From: Streptomyces tsukubensis
Lineage (GTDB): Bacteria > Actinomycetota > Actinomycetes > Streptomycetales > Streptomycetaceae
NCBI RefSeq assembly: GCF_009296025.1
Contig: NZ_CP045178.1
Location: 4,464,001 to 4,528,000 of the forward strand
DNA length: 64,000 nt
Direction: 5' to 3'
Shown piece after piece: positions 41,526 to 47,262 of this stretch (position 1 is the stretch's first letter; each line of letters opens with the position of its first letter). The notes below the pieces were generated by a model that ran no database searches, was not told where the DNA came from, and saw nothing but the letters and a program-made list of their open reading frames with translations. A program made the position numbers and the translations under genes.

Positions 41526-41648
41526 GGACGTACTGTGGGCGCCCAAGGGGGCCTCCGGGACACGAGGCCTCATCCACGGGCCCTCGGCCCTCTGCCCTCA
41601 GCCCTCTGCCCTCAGCCTCACGGCTCTCATGGCGCTCGGCCATCGGCT

Positions 41649-41733
41649 CTCACCGCTCTCAGCAGCGGCTCTCGCCGATCTCGGCCGCGGGCCCTCACCG
41701 CTCTCAGCAGCGGCTCTCGCCGATCTCGGCCGC
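41649..41733. repeat. Two perfect 40-bp direct repeats, 45-bp period
   Basis: The copies at 41649-41688 and 41694-41733 are identical over 40 bp. Shorter degenerate CTCTCAG/CCCTCAG units lie on both sides. They sit between the convergent hspR and LuxR genes. Confidence 0.85.
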
Positions 41734-41751
41734 CGGCCCTCGCCGCCCCTC

Positions 41752-42735
41752 TCAGCTGCGGATGTCCAGGATTCCTGAGCGGGCGATCAGGTAGCCGAGT
41801 TGGGCGCGGCTGCCGCTGCCCAGGGCGGCGGCGAGTTTGGCGATGTGCGCCCGGCAGGTGCGGACGTTCATCCCGAGGCGTCGCGCTATCGCCTCGTCGA
41901 CGTGGCCTTCGACGAGGAGCCGTGCGATGGACCGTTGGATACCGGTGATGCCGTCGGTGGACGGCGCGTAGGGCGGGGCCTCCAGCAGCGGTACCGCGCG
42001 GGACCAGAACTGTTCGAAGACACGGGCGAGGTACTCGACGATGCCGGGGTGGCGCAGTTCGAGGGCGACGCTCCGGTCGTCACGCGCGGGGATGAAGGCC
42101 ACGGACCGGTCGAAGATCATGAGCCGTTCCGTCAGCTCCTCCAGCGTGCGGATCTCGACCGAGTTGTGGCCCATGCGCTCCGCGTAGGCGAACGTTCCCT
42201 GATTGTGCCGGGCGGTGTGCTGGTACAGGGTGCGCATGGTGACGCCCCGGTCGGTGAATTCGCGGGCGCCCTCGACGGCCCTGACGAGAACGTCCTCGTC
42301 CCTGCTGCCGCCCGGCTGGATGGTCAGCACCTCGCGGGAGCACTCGGCCGACGCCAGCCCGATGGCCGCGTTGATGCGTCCGAATCCCTCCAGGACGGTG
42401 ATGGCGTGCGTGACCGCGGACTCCTGGGTGCTGAGCGCGAGAAATGGCTCAAAAGAATCTGCCAGAGCGACGGCCAGGCGCCGTTTCTCCTGAATCTCCT
42501 GTTCGATCGGCCGCATCCGGCGGGCCAGGGCGAGGCTCGGAGGTACAGCTCGGAGCCACTGTGGGTCGTCCGGATCGGGATGGAGCAGGGCCATTTCCGT
42601 GAGGCAGGGGACGATTTCGGCGTCCGCTCGGGCCACCCTGCCCGACCGTACGGCGCTGGCGTAAATCAGCTGTCCCTCTTCGCACAGCTCGACGCCTGGG
42701 TGAGGATGTGACGGAAATGCGCGGATCGCGGTCAT
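41752..42735 (-). CDS. LuxR-type regulator with large N-terminal domain
   Basis: This encodes 327 residues. The C-terminal helix-turn-helix (about 262-322) is of the LuxR/NarL type: ITGIQRSIARLLVEGHVDEA, IARRLGMNVRTCRAHIAKLA, ALGSGSRAQLGYLIARSGIL. The N-terminal 250 residues include a coiled helix (ARRMRPIEQEIQEKRRLAVA) and a segment resembling the phospholipase-D-like/TrmB-type sensor found in Streptomyces orphan LuxR regulators (RGVTMRTLYQHTA, FAYAERMGHNSVEIRTLEEL). There is no receiver domain. It is divergent from the secreted DIIWD-repeat gene and is its likely regulator. Confidence 0.8.
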   Translation of the reverse strand: MTAIRAFPSHPHPGVELCEEGQLIYASAVRSGRVARADAEIVPCLTEMALLHPDPDDPQWLRAVPPSLALARRMRPIEQEIQEKRRLAVALADSFEPFLALSTQESAVTHAITVLEGFGRINAAIGLASAECSREVLTIQPGGSRDEDVLVRAVEGAREFTDRGVTMRTLYQHTARHNQGTFAYAERMGHNSVEIRTLEELTERLMIFDRSVAFIPARDDRSVALELRHPGIVEYLARVFEQFWSRAVPLLEAPPYAPSTDGITGIQRSIARLLVEGHVDEAIARRLGMNVRTCRAHIAKLAAALGSGSRAQLGYLIARSGILDIRS

Positions 42736-42866
42736 AAATCCACCCCCCAGGGTCCTGTACGTGCAGGAACATGATGCATCGTTCCGGTGGCGTTGATGTG
42801 TTGCTATGCGCCATCGTCATTCCGGACGGGGGAGAGGATGACCGGGAAGTGAGGACGAAGCCGCTT

Positions 42867-43310
42867 ATGGGCAAGAGAACGCTCCACACGGCGCGCGCCA
42901 TGGCCTTCTCCGCTGGGATCGCGTTGAGTGCGGTCACCGCACTCGGCTTCACCGCTCACGCGGTGACCGCGGATGGACATGCGGCGGACGTACGGGCAGC
43001 ATCGCCTATGCACGTGATCAAGGACTCGACGTTCCAGGCTGTGTCCTCGTCGGACATCATCTGGGACTCGGCTCCGAGGGTCTCGCCCGCGGACATCATC
43101 TGGGACTCGGCTCCGAAGGTGTCGCCGGGCGACATCATCTGGGACTCGGTCCCCAGGGTCGTGCCCGCGTCGGACATCATCTGGGACGTGGCACCCAAGG
43201 CCGTTCCCGCGTCCGACATCATTTGGGACTCGGTCCCGACGGTCTCATCCGCGGACATCATCTGGGACTCTCCCCGTCCGCACTCGGCTCAGGACAGTGC
43301 TCTGGCATGA
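42867..43310 (+). CDS. Secreted protein with six DIIWD repeats (possible multi-copy peptide precursor)
   Basis: This encodes 147 residues from the ATG at 42867; an in-frame GTG at 42849 is an alternative start. Residues 1-33 form a Sec signal peptide: MGKRTLHTARAMAFSAGIAL, a hydrophobic core, then FTAHA before the probable cleavage site. Six units follow, with DIIWD at 63, 76, 89, 103, 117 and 130, spaced 13 or 14 residues, each of the form DIIWDSAPRVSPA. The linkers are Pro/Ser/Val-rich with one Arg or Lys in the first four. I recognise no family. Its stop overlaps the next ATG (ATGA). A repeat structure with basic linker residues suggests processing into small peptides, or a repetitive surface ligand. 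Confidence 0.75.
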   Translation: MGKRTLHTARAMAFSAGIALSAVTALGFTAHAVTADGHAADVRAASPMHVIKDSTFQAVSSSDIIWDSAPRVSPADIIWDSAPKVSPGDIIWDSVPRVVPASDIIWDVAPKAVPASDIIWDSVPTVSSADIIWDSPRPHSAQDSALA

Positions 43311-43627
43311 CGATCCCACCTGACGACAGGACCTTCCGGCGCGAGATGGCGACCGCCTACCGCTCCGGATGGCACATCATCGATCTGGTCACGGCGATTC
43401 CCCACGAAGGTGACTCGCTCATGGTCACCCTCTTCGGGGAGCCGATCGTCGTCGTGCGGGACGGGGATGACGACGTCAGGGCCTACCGATGCCTTCGTCG
43501 CCCACGTGGCGCGCCGCAGCCCGTGCGGTGTGTCGTGCGATACGGAATGGTTTTTGTGAATCTCGACCAGCGCGACCACCGGCTCGTCGAGGAGGAACAC
43601 ATCGCGGCCACCCCCCGCAGTGCCTGA
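43307..43627 (+). CDS. Small Rieske-domain-derived protein lacking the cluster ligands
   Basis: This encodes 106 residues, translationally coupled to the DIIWD-repeat gene. GWHIIDLVTAI, SLMVTLFGEPIVVVRDGDDDV and RYGMVFVNLDQ resemble the N-terminal beta-domain of Rieske non-heme oxygenases. At the cluster site the usual C-x-H reads CLRRPRGAP and the second C-x2-H is missing. It therefore cannot hold a standard 2Fe-2S Rieske cluster. It may be a binding protein derived from an oxygenase, or a relic. Its strict pairing with the secreted repeat protein is the main clue to function. Confidence 0.6.
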   Translation: MTIPPDDRTFRREMATAYRSGWHIIDLVTAIPHEGDSLMVTLFGEPIVVVRDGDDDVRAYRCLRRPRGAPQPVRCVVRYGMVFVNLDQRDHRLVEEEHIAATPRSA

Positions 43628-46972: not shown

Positions 46973-47063
46973 GACGGCACCCCCCAGGGCCGGGCCCGAC
47001 CCGCAAGTCCGGGGCCGGACCCGGCACGAGGGGGGCGGGCCGTTAGCTCTGGGGCTGCCGTGC

Positions 47064-47262
47064 GGTCCTGTGGTCCTGTGGCCGTGTGGACCCGTGGCCC
47101 CGTGGACCCGCGCTCCGATGGCCGTGCGGGCCTGTGGCCGTGCGGGCCTGTGGCCGTGCGGGCCTGCGGACCTGTGGGCCTGTGGGCCTGTGGGCCTGTG
47201 GGCCTGTGGGCCTGTGGGCCTGCGGACCTATGGACCTATGGACCTATGGACCTGCGGCCGGA
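47064..47262. repeat. 9-bp minisatellite (GGGCCTGTG-type units)
   Basis: More than twenty near-identical short units of 9 bp (cctgtgggc, with variants such as cctgcggac and cctatggac) run head to tail between clpB and the YbjN gene. The central block contains six perfect copies in a row (about 47166-47219). No coding role is likely. Confidence 0.9.

Follow-up and report, generated by a model that had tools for sequence, protein, structure and literature searches.

A putative family of DxxW peptide signals and paired LuxR-type receptors in Streptomyces

A small repeat protein with a Sec-type N-terminus (RP), encoded beside the heat-shock genes of Streptomyces tsukubensis, is probably a propeptide, whose DxxW peptide would re-enter the cell and bind the TrmB-like sensor domain of a divergently encoded LuxR regulator, the two forming a self-recognition cassette; we give this reading a probability of roughly three in four. 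The support shown for it, drawn from sequence comparison, comprises a conserved locus, a tetrapeptide unit, homogenisation of this unit within genomes, its covariation with sensor residues, a pairing rule that recurs at other loci, and an operator-like site.

The locus and its distribution

The window (64,000 nucleotides of contig NZ_CP045178.1, positions 4,464,001 to 4,528,000) harbors three genes between the dnaK operon and clpB, arranged as a preliminary description had placed them: a LuxR-type regulator gene on the minus strand (41752-42735, 327 aa), followed on the plus strand by the genes for RP (ATG at 42867, to 43310; 147 aa, a Sec-type precursor with six DIIW(D) cores) and for a Rieske-like protein, RL (43307-43627, 106 aa). 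The latter two share a 4-nt ATGA overlap, also reported earlier and found in 119 of 162 loci, and a divergent upstream LuxR homologue, at least 53% identical, is present in all 121 RL-locus rows examined (some loci being counted twice). The probable RP signal peptide (42867..42962, plus strand; residues 1-32, with AHA at the predicted end) was assigned by a hydrophobicity rule of our own, implemented in scripts; export by Sec, as stated earlier ("Sec-exported"), is a prediction from this rule.

RL is the best conserved part of the unit, and home loci were taken from RL matches, so that the sample is biased toward RL-bearing loci. RL was matched (E <= 0.001) in 331 of 392 Streptomyces genomes, six of these matches being full-length oxygenases, which leaves 325, and in class-wide and family-wide draws every match fell within the genus. 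No LuxR relative above 43% identity was found in 20 of the 61 RL-unmatched Streptomyces genomes. The relatives comprise 80 of 552 from one search, the rest being hand-picked from among the matches listed. The 162 non-redundant loci are what remains of 181 after leaving out six (L085, L088 and L123, whose LuxR translations are short; L259, with no Sec-like [DE]xxW ORF; L316 and L317, where a second RL copy has neither LuxR nor RP beside it) and 13 with near-identical LuxR (>98.5%). One locus of a 24-locus set, L276, carries NSTW in place of [DE]xxW and was not carried forward.

RL aligns with the N-terminal part of the alpha subunit of Rieske ring-hydroxylating oxygenases, which has cluster ligands and a catalytic domain, whereas RL is without both. 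Its score against the Pfam Rieske model is 16.9 bits, below the cut-off of 20.3, and in the alignment with 5xbp the first Cys-x-His falls on Arg64-x-Pro66 of RL, after which the match ends and the second ligand pair (CxxH) stays unaligned, in agreement with the earlier view of a Rieske-like protein lacking cluster ligands (the RL alignment, A3, holds 46 of 60 RL sequences).

A tetrapeptide unit in a fast-evolving putative precursor

The six DIIW cores of RP lie within 43053..43265 on the plus strand (43053-43064, 43092-43103, 43131-43142, 43173-43184, 43215-43226 and 43254-43265). Read as DIIWD, they are spaced by 13, 13, 14, 14 and 13 residues with Arg or Lys in four of the five linkers, all as previously described, and Tandem Repeats Finder independently reports an array at 43051-43270 (39-bp unit, 5.5 copies, 76% matches). 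A direct search with the window RP gave no homologue at E <= 0.01 among 817 candidates, after which relatives were identified by position. Searching with a DSTW-type RP recovered 58 relatives, many of them unnamed; those with a name are annotated as hypothetical, as secreted or membrane proteins, or as '5'-nucleotidase', and wherever a name shows the organism, it is a Streptomyces. RP belongs to a family that evolves fast, next to the conserved RL and the divergently encoded regulator of LuxR type.

Of the 577 Trp residues that follow RP residue 16 in the 162 non-redundant relatives, 573 stand within [DE]xxW, a figure that is not blind to the motif, since the scripts preferred candidate ORFs richer in [DE]xxW. 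This preference gives no advantage to copies being alike within one genome, and 565 of the 573 copies match the majority tetrapeptide of their own genome, while 38 distinct tetrapeptides occur between genomes. In an earlier set of 144 genomes, within-genome copy identity was 0.983, whereas 1000 shuffles of the copies among genomes never exceeded 0.097; the repeat array is far beyond chance. Between copies of one genome, identity reaches 0.99-1.0 at motif positions 1-3 (Trp4 being fixed by definition), falls to 0.62 at flank +1, 0.48 at -1 and 0.25-0.42 at the other flanking positions, and between genomes it is about 0.2 at motif positions 2 and 3. The conserved unit is therefore the four-residue [DE]xxW; the repeated aromatic core recognised earlier holds, and DIIWD plus linker as its unit does not.

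The linkers are rich in Ala, Pro and Ser. Lys or Arg occurs in 141 of 411 linkers, only two of which are dibasic, and in most linkers of 34 of 138 multi-copy precursors; a majority of basic linkers, as in the window RP, characterises a minority of species, and cutting at Arg/Lys was rejected as a general step because these residues are not conserved. Copy number ranges from 1 to 11 per precursor (144-genome set), with a single core in 24 of the 162 precursors, at the extreme C-terminus in 15 of the 24. The core differs in 59 of 89 species pairs with less than 6% ClpB divergence, and the ClpB tree of the 162 genomes carries 106 motif changes. Taken literally, repeat number and sequence are not conserved in homologues, which the preliminary description had named as counting against its proposal; a motif that is homogeneous within a genome and switches between genomes together with the receptor nevertheless argues for signalling.

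Covariation with the regulator, and a putative operator

The window LuxR consists of a sensor region (approximately residues 1-255) with a TrmBL2-like stretch, and a C-terminal GerE/LuxR HTH (approximately 260-317). A profile built on alignment A2 (52 of 60 orthologues and 36 of 45 paralogues picked) matched TrmBL2 (5box) over positions 49-245 of 322 (E 8e-10) as well as GerE-type HTHs; the single LuxR sequence gave only HTH matches in the PDB (E 0.02-0.05), TrmBL2 not being found at E 0.1. The GerE/LuxR HTH of the window protein scores 18.3 bits, below the Pfam cut-off of 23.5, and is found at E <= 0.01 in 15 of 15 paralogues, and the matches to DUF7436 and TbsP_N are weak and below cut-off. 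Neither a TPR nor an autoinducer-binding domain appears in the Pfam scan at E up to 1, and no N-terminal TrmB winged HTH was found, all HTH matches in Pfam being C-terminal, although a degenerate one is possible. The family, home receptor included, is present in 60 of 61 Streptomyces genomes searched, with up to 15 regulator genes of the TrmB-sensor LuxR type per genome; the "orphan" regulator of the earlier account is indeed divergent from RP, but not isolated.

Core distance correlates with LuxR sensor distance (Mantel r 0.565; partial r 0.545 after removing ClpB, RL and the LuxR HTH, p 0.0033, the lowest value that 300 permutations allow), part of this signal reflecting co-inheritance of RP with the sensor segment, since the correlation is broad and includes silent sites (third-position r 0.33 for the sensor, 0.07 for the HTH, 0.12 for RL). 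Given ClpB alone, the HTH and RL are also weakly correlated with the core (0.17 and 0.07), and RL falls to -0.05 once ClpB and the sensor are both accounted for. The core thus tracks the sensor domain far more than the HTH or RL, and RL was rejected as receptor.

At the residue level, Ser at motif position 2 (P2) goes with Met136 and Asp157 (43/43), Thr with Val136 and Asp157 (16/16), Pro with Leu136 and Val, Met or Ile157 (41/41), and Ile with Val136 and Gly or Ala157 (34/37), while Arg145 is missing from all 13 receptors whose motif has Arg, Lys or His at position 3 (P3), against 8 of 149 with other P3 residues. Among identity-matched pairs, those with unlike P2 differ at residue 136 in 26 of 37 cases and those sharing P2 in 0 of 60 (p 3e-15). 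This comparison points to residues 136 and 160 for P2 and to 153 for P3; residue 145 is outside the top list, and residue 157 (14/37 vs 8/60, p 0.006) is not significant after Bonferroni correction. The sensor tree places 15 of 22 P2 changes on branches where residue 136 also changes (2.0 expected). On this tree, residue 157 as a whole shows three coincidences (p 0.13, not significant), P1 against residue 146 is weak (p 0.08), and none of residues 160, 143, 181, 199, 201, 245 and 250 reaches significance for the motif position it was picked for.

The rule linking Ser or Thr at P2 with Asp157 was derived at home loci and then checked at other loci, where sensors are 20-36% identical to that of the window: Asp157 accompanies 13 of 13 Ser/Thr motifs and 2 of 23 others (p 4.5e-8), the two exceptions being DLPW and GIGW, and after removing sensors more than 60% identical the counts are 12/12 and 2/13 (p 2e-5). 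The 36 pairs include 28 divergent peptides, seven non-divergent ones (L361, L381, L382, L383, L387, L443 and L445) and L386, whose motif lacks [DE] at position 1 and which was counted against the rule; L361 and L448, left out of the first pair set, were added to this final test. By our rule, a divergent [DE]xxW peptide stands in only 32 of 104 paralogue locus rows, four of the 32 being home-type and at least three places being entered twice among the rows. Such pairs also occur away from heat-shock genes. No convincing peptide was found beside LuxR paralogues inside the home locus (23 loci), nor beside either of the two remote LuxR homologues in this genome. Of six paralogue peptides, none exceeded a curated NCBIfam cut-off, the nearest model being that of the Phr signal peptide (19.4 bits, cut-off 25). 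Covariation with the sensor and recurrence of one rule elsewhere strongly support, at the level of sequence, the earlier suggestion that the core may be read through the divergent LuxR, which we propose as receptor.

Upstream of luxR, 18-41 nt from its start codon, lies a palindrome, TCCTG-N6-CAGGA followed by ACATGATG (42753..42776, plus strand), proposed here as the LuxR operator. Both GAACATGATG and AACATGATGC occur in 162 of 162 intergenic regions, and CAGGAACATGAT in 151 of 162. This genome contains the exact pattern once, and its remaining matches all have three mismatches and are as numerous as with a reversed-pattern control; genome G246 has two 2-mismatch matches besides its exact one. 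A wider regulon sought with this pattern in two genomes (6-base spacer) gave nothing above control level.

Mechanism, alternative readings and known systems

Under the propeptide reading, RP would be exported by Sec and cut outside the cell into short peptides around one [DE]xxW (DIIW in the window), one or several per precursor. The peptide would re-enter, probably via an oligopeptide permease (no permease gene lies within the three-gene unit), and bind the TrmB-like sensor domain, altering the hold of LuxR on the palindrome between the two genes, with DNA binding and the sign of regulation as predicted elements. Control would thereby reach the three genes of the locus and, in S. coelicolor at any rate, antibiotic production. 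Motif positions 2 and 3 would act as the specificity code and Asp/Glu1 and Trp4 as anchors, motif and sensor switching together between species as self-recognition types, and RL may be a co-produced effector or accessory protein. Of the earlier guess at a peptide-signal precursor, a secreted-type, often multi-copy protein with a core matched to LuxR by sequence remains, and basic-residue cutting as a general step drops out. A broader version, in which DxxW pheromones form a genus-wide family, each with its own TrmB-sensor LuxR and a code pairing P2 with 136/157 and P3 with 145/153, and in which the dnaK-clpB locus is a conserved, often multi-copy, antibiotic-controlling member, seems to us somewhat better than an even bet.

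The same receptor-ligand data would fit a LuxR whose ligand is the DxxW of precursor that has stayed in the cytoplasm, the regulator then monitoring secretion or heat stress without cell-to-cell signalling, and the heat-shock neighbourhood and the lack of an importer in the unit agree with this; such an internal ligand gives no reason for the 106 motif changes, for differing motif-sensor types in close relatives, or for pairs away from heat-shock genes, and we regard it as unlikely. Several short cores with an invariant Trp, coupled to an RL derived from an oxygenase fold, could also suggest a multi-core RiPP, its Trp or Asp enzymatically modified with RL in maturation, yielding an antibiotic or a modified signal sensed by LuxR; the unit contains no known RiPP enzyme, RL being the sole candidate there, and RL has only 106 residues and no cluster ligands, and this reading seems decidedly unlikely.

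Could the residue match be a by-product of RP and the adjacent sensor half recombining together, with no binding at all? The silent-site correlation of the sensor half and that of LuxR residues 1-20, the stretch nearest RP (0.45), are what such linkage predicts. However, RL overlaps RP on the other side and shows little link, matched pairs point to particular residues (136, 160 and 153), and the Asp157 rule recurs at other loci with sensible chemistry, making linkage alone highly improbable. The least credible reading is the multi-site scaffold suggested earlier, a secreted multivalent binder with an incidental LuxR link: variable copy number and linker composition would suit it, but it fails to explain the single-core precursors, with their frequently C-terminal core, or the match between sensor and core.

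If the propeptide reading is true, the peptide code could be read from any genome, signals could be predicted and made synthetically, to serve as switches for antibiotic production, and who can hear whom within Streptomyces would become predictable, all testable with short unmodified peptides. By gene order and sizes in S. violaceoruber, we propose SCO3664 as the S. coelicolor orthologue of the window LuxR. According to the available text of PMC6585502, SCO3664 is listed with genes in which a Tn5 insertion increases actinorhodin over 50-fold, certain mutants in this group exceed 200-fold, and complementation restored 12 of 16 regulator mutants. If orthology holds, the proposed receptor represses actinorhodin, and the cassette would offer a mechanism for this strong, unexplained repressor.

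Several known systems share parts of this arrangement. LuxR-LuxI AHL systems likewise have a LuxR-type HTH output, whereas the Pfam list of the window LuxR holds no autoinducer-binding domain and a gene-encoded ligand is proposed. The TrmB family (TrmBL2) resembles the sensor by profile, and differs in that the output here is a C-terminal LuxR/GerE HTH and the predicted ligand a peptide. Yeast alpha-factor type propheromones likewise repeat a short peptide several times within a secreted precursor; RP, in contrast, is without conserved basic cutting sites, and its receptor would be a bacterial regulator. In the ComQXP system of Bacillus subtilis, a polymorphic cassette spans the peptide together with the receptor's sensor half, the output half is conserved, and the pheromone contains Trp, all of which has a counterpart here; its histidine kinase receptor and ComQ prenyltransferase are absent from the Pfam lists of the three window proteins. 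RRNPP systems of Firmicutes (Rap-Phr, PlcR-PapR, Rgg-SHP, PrgX) also have adjacent propeptide and receptor genes, and their mature peptide is often C-terminal. That peptide is taken back up and bound in the cytoplasm, and of these steps it is binding that covariation supports here. In the available text of PMC10075063, the criteria ask for a small Sec-type propeptide and a receptor of 250-500 aa encoded side by side. RRNPP receptors have TPRs, whereas the window receptor combines a TrmB-like sensor with a C-terminal LuxR HTH and no TPR was found in it; many precursors here are multi-copy, and the host is Streptomyces.

Within Streptomyces, SapB and AmfS are described in the available part of PMC13380574 as gene-encoded, extracellular class III lanthipeptides that act in development. 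They are enzymatically modified, while the RP unit has no lanthipeptide enzyme. To our knowledge, no paired variable receptor is known for them. Signals in Actinobacteria are typically enzyme-made small molecules, as far as the available text of PMC10075063 goes, and the accessible part of a 2026 review names gamma-butyrolactones for Streptomyces; in the literature on such signals that we covered, no propeptide with a paired, co-varying receptor was found. A species-specific motif, and a neighbouring LuxR-type regulator that changes in step with it, point to the DxxW system as a putative family of peptide signals encoded by genes, not previously described, in the principal bacterial producers of antibiotics.

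A three-gene unit between the dnaK operon and clpB

On the Streptomyces chromosome (8.63-Mb genome), a three-gene unit is flanked by hspR, a member of the dnaK operon, and by clpB. It is composed of a LuxR-type gene (41752-42735, minus strand), a gene for a 147-aa Sec-type protein with six DIIW(D) cores (the repeat protein, RP; 42867-43310, plus strand), and a gene for a 106-aa Rieske-like protein (RL; 43307-43627, plus strand) that shares an ATGA overlap with RP. The module of the preliminary description (LuxR, repeat protein, ligand-less Rieske-like protein) is therefore confirmed, the genes, six cores and overlap all being present. RP has no Pfam match at E up to 1, nothing above the cut-off in NCBIfam, and no match at E <= 0.01 in a word-based search of 5.8 billion proteins. 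Tandem repeats with units of 7, 14, 22-23 and 45 bp occupy the gap after hspR (41579-41746), and a G+C-rich 8/32-bp tandem array follows clpB (47057-47257), from which Gly-Pro-Val-Leu-Trp-rich, probably spurious ORFs can be read.

RL is related to the N-terminal domain of ring-hydroxylating oxygenases, but shortened (best match 9jp5, E 1.3e-5) and is devoid of cluster ligands; its Cys62 and Cys75 are nearly invariant, though they do not align with Rieske ligand positions, and TPRSA is found at the C-terminus in 157/162 loci. Matches to RL at E <= 0.001 occur in 331/392 Streptomyces genomes, and since six of them (G048, G055, G073, G086, G263, G337) are full-length oxygenases, RL is present in 325/392, with divergent versions in four genomes (G047, G050, G105, G184). 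RL was recovered in 23/296 genomes of a class-wide draw, all from Streptomyces out of 114 genera, and in 30/150 genomes of a family draw, from one genus of 17. A divergent LuxR homologue lies 5' of the locus in all 121 locus rows checked, and no LuxR relative above 43% identity was found in the 20 genomes checked among the 61 without an RL match, so the unit seems to be gained and lost as a whole. Second RL copies exist elsewhere in G023 and G259 (L316, L317, L185), with no RP or LuxR found beside them. In many species, one or two extra LuxR paralogues adjoin the proposed receptor (home loci among L067-L143, and L298 6209-8339); identity over the matched region is about 38-57%, and no convincing partner peptide was seen for them.

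A short motif and the half of the proposed receptor that follows it

In nearly every relative, the ORF directly 5' of RL encodes a small Sec-like product carrying [DE]xxW motifs; no such ORF was found at L259, and L276 has NSTW in place of the motif. The preliminary description looked to conservation of the DIIWD repeat among homologues: conservation is seen in the locus but not in the repeats, and the motif is species-dependent (DIGW, DITW, DVGW, DSGW, EPTW, DPVW, EISW and DSTW among others). The conserved unit of RP is a TETRAPEPTIDE. Across 162 non-redundant loci, [DE]xxW holds 573/577 Trp residues beyond residue 16, 565 of these 573 copies equal their genome's majority motif, and the motif is uniform in 130/138 multi-copy precursors, while 38 kinds of majority motif occur, with only S, P, I, T, L or V at position 2 and G, T, S, A, V, I, R, H or K at position 3. 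Within a genome (144-genome set), copy identity is 0.99-1.0 at motif positions 1-3 (Trp4 being fixed by definition), 0.62 at +1, 0.48 at -1 and 0.25-0.42 farther out. Precursors carry 1 to 11 copies spaced by 7 to 29 residues, and single-copy precursors have the motif at the extreme C-terminus in 15/24 cases (e.g., ...DTVWD, ...DSRWD, ...QQDPAWD). Of pairs of identical copies, 46% also share the same DNA; codons thus vary between identical copies, and it is the protein motif, not DNA alone, that is kept constant. The UniRef label "5'-nucleotidase" on the RP relatives P0122, P0144 and P0172 is unsupported by their size (about 70-100 aa).

Motif distance correlates with distance in the LuxR sensor (residues 1-255; r 0.565), and r 0.545 is left once ClpB, RL and LuxR HTH distances are removed (p 0.0033, the lowest value that 300 permutations can give). 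With ClpB alone controlled for, the HTH and RL correlate with the motif at 0.17 and 0.07, and with both ClpB and the sensor controlled for at 0.06 and -0.05, so that RL does not track the motif. Along the sensor, sliding windows give r 0.16-0.52, and r does not exceed 0.11 from residue 261 onward. The motif is shared with the nearest genome in 73% of cases by sensor, 47% by HTH, 27% by RL and 24% by ClpB, compared to 4% for random pairs. A column scan relates position 2 to LuxR residues 136/157 almost deterministically: Ser with Met/Asp (43/43), Thr with Val/Asp (16/16), Pro with Leu and Val, Met or Ile (41/41), Ile with Val and Gly or Ala (34/37), Leu with Val/Gly (12/14), and Val with Val/Ser (9/11). 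Arg145 is absent in 13/13 cases with a basic position 3 and in 8/149 with another residue there. Such chemistry would fit a binding pocket, with Asp for the hydroxyl and Arg removed where it would face a cation.

Relatedness and linkage can mimic such covariation. Third codon positions do correlate with the motif in the sensor half (r 0.33; HTH 0.07, RL 0.12), so co-inheritance accounts for some of the association. Two tests reach beyond relatedness and linkage: matched pairs, which are not fully independent, and branch tests, which are approximate. Among LuxR pairs equalised for identity (about 78%; Bonferroni over 327 columns), residue 136 differs in 26/37 with a different position 2 versus 0/60 with the same (p 3e-15). 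Significance extends to residue 160 for position 2 and to residue 153 for position 3 (26/53 versus 8/60). Residue 157 is not significant after correction (14/37 versus 8/60, p 0.006), which would be expected were Asp157 retained through Ser-Thr swaps, and residue 145 falls outside the top list. On a sensor tree built without the tested columns, 15/22 position-2 changes lie on branches with a residue 136 change (expected 2.0), Ser/Thr gains or losses coincide with those of Asp157 in 3/3, and residue 153 tracks position 3 (7 coincidences versus 2.3); position 1 versus residue 146 is weak (p 0.08), and none of residues 143, 160, 181, 199, 201, 245 and 250, nor 157 when every state is counted, reaches significance for the motif position for which it was chosen. 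On the ClpB tree, each of the 20 Ser/Thr switches is accompanied by an Asp157 switch. Motifs differ in 59/89 species pairs with less than 6% ClpB divergence; in one of them (DSHW versus DTIW), ClpB differs by 1.5%, RL by 3%, the HTH by 10% and the sensor by 24%.

Proposed receptor-peptide pairs elsewhere in the genome

Members of the profile A4 regulator family, counting the proposed home receptor, occur in 60/61 Streptomyces genomes at E <= 1e-30, with up to 15 per genome. In 32/104 locus rows, mostly off the dnaK-clpB site, there is a divergently oriented Sec-like ORF no farther than 1 kb away whose last 28 residues include [DE]xxW; control orientations, with a limit at least as wide, give 5 (upstream, same strand), 1 (downstream, same strand) and 8 (downstream, opposite strand, several of which resemble real peptides). 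Four of the 32 are home-type by sequence. Example peptides end in ...DDQWG, ...DMGWQ, ...DSAWG, ...DTGWD (two copies) or DLPWT (three copies), and the sensors at these other loci share 20-36% identity with that of the window. The rule derived at the home locus, that Ser/Thr at position 2 goes with Asp157, was applied to these pairs, the motifs of 34 being read by eye before residue 157 was inspected (L361 and L448 were added later): Asp157 is found in 13/13 Ser/Thr pairs versus 2/23 with other motifs (Fisher 4.5e-8), and in 12/12 versus 2/13 without sensors above 60% identity (p 2e-5). This is the strongest single argument, because those genes lie elsewhere in the genomes.

The RP core may thus act as a peptide signal sensed through LuxR, as the preliminary description proposed, a hypothesis strongly supported at the sequence level by motif-sensor covariation and the Asp157 rule at other loci. 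Because the case rests on residue 136 and on the test at other loci, neither the RL count of 325 rather than 331 nor the negative column tests change its odds.

Other proteins were seen beside TrmB-LuxR genes. At L443 and L445, 86-aa proteins that look secreted and contain two DFVWP copies are encoded downstream on the opposite strand, and 44-45-aa Sec-like peptides at L367 (and L358), L362 and L368 end in NIWF, NIWA or TSVWD; lacking [DE] at position 1, the latter suggest that [DE]xxW may be too narrow a definition of the motif.

Output and relation to known systems

The luxR-RP intergenic region contains TCCTG-N6-CAGGA-ACATGATG, and the run GAACATGATG is present in 162/162 such regions, with a spacer of 5 rather than 6 in some. 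The exact 6-spacer pattern occurs once in the window's genome and once in S. violaceoruber (G246), and looser matches in both are as many as for a reversed-pattern control, making the locus itself the clearest target. RL could, at a guess, be an effector or accessory protein produced in step with the signal.

In S. violaceoruber, the order is LuxR 394 (+), LuxR 327 (-), LuxR 345 (-), a 63-aa RP with SDTIWS at its end and RL, followed by the clpB region. SCO3666 has 394 aa and SCO3665 has 327 aa (PMC3282765), matching this order, so by gene order and sizes SCO3664 should be the home LuxR, SCO3663 RP and SCO3662 RL. PMC6585502 lists SCO3664 as one of the genes in which insertions lifted actinorhodin over 50-fold, with over 200-fold in some mutants of the set; no mention of SCO3662 or SCO3663 was found in the full texts searched.

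A full-text literature search, thin on subscription papers and preprints, found no Streptomyces propeptide-LuxR system among the matches listed. SapB and AmfS are gene-encoded Streptomyces peptides, but enzyme-modified lanthipeptides. RRNPP signalling is alike in principle, yet no TPR was found in this LuxR, which also has no detected autoinducer domain and so belongs to neither RRNPP nor LuxR-LuxI systems. The unit is not a ComQXP system. Self-recognition cassettes such as comQXP are likewise mosaic, combining a polymorphic peptide and sensor with a conserved output half, as is seen here in the DSHW-DTIW pair.
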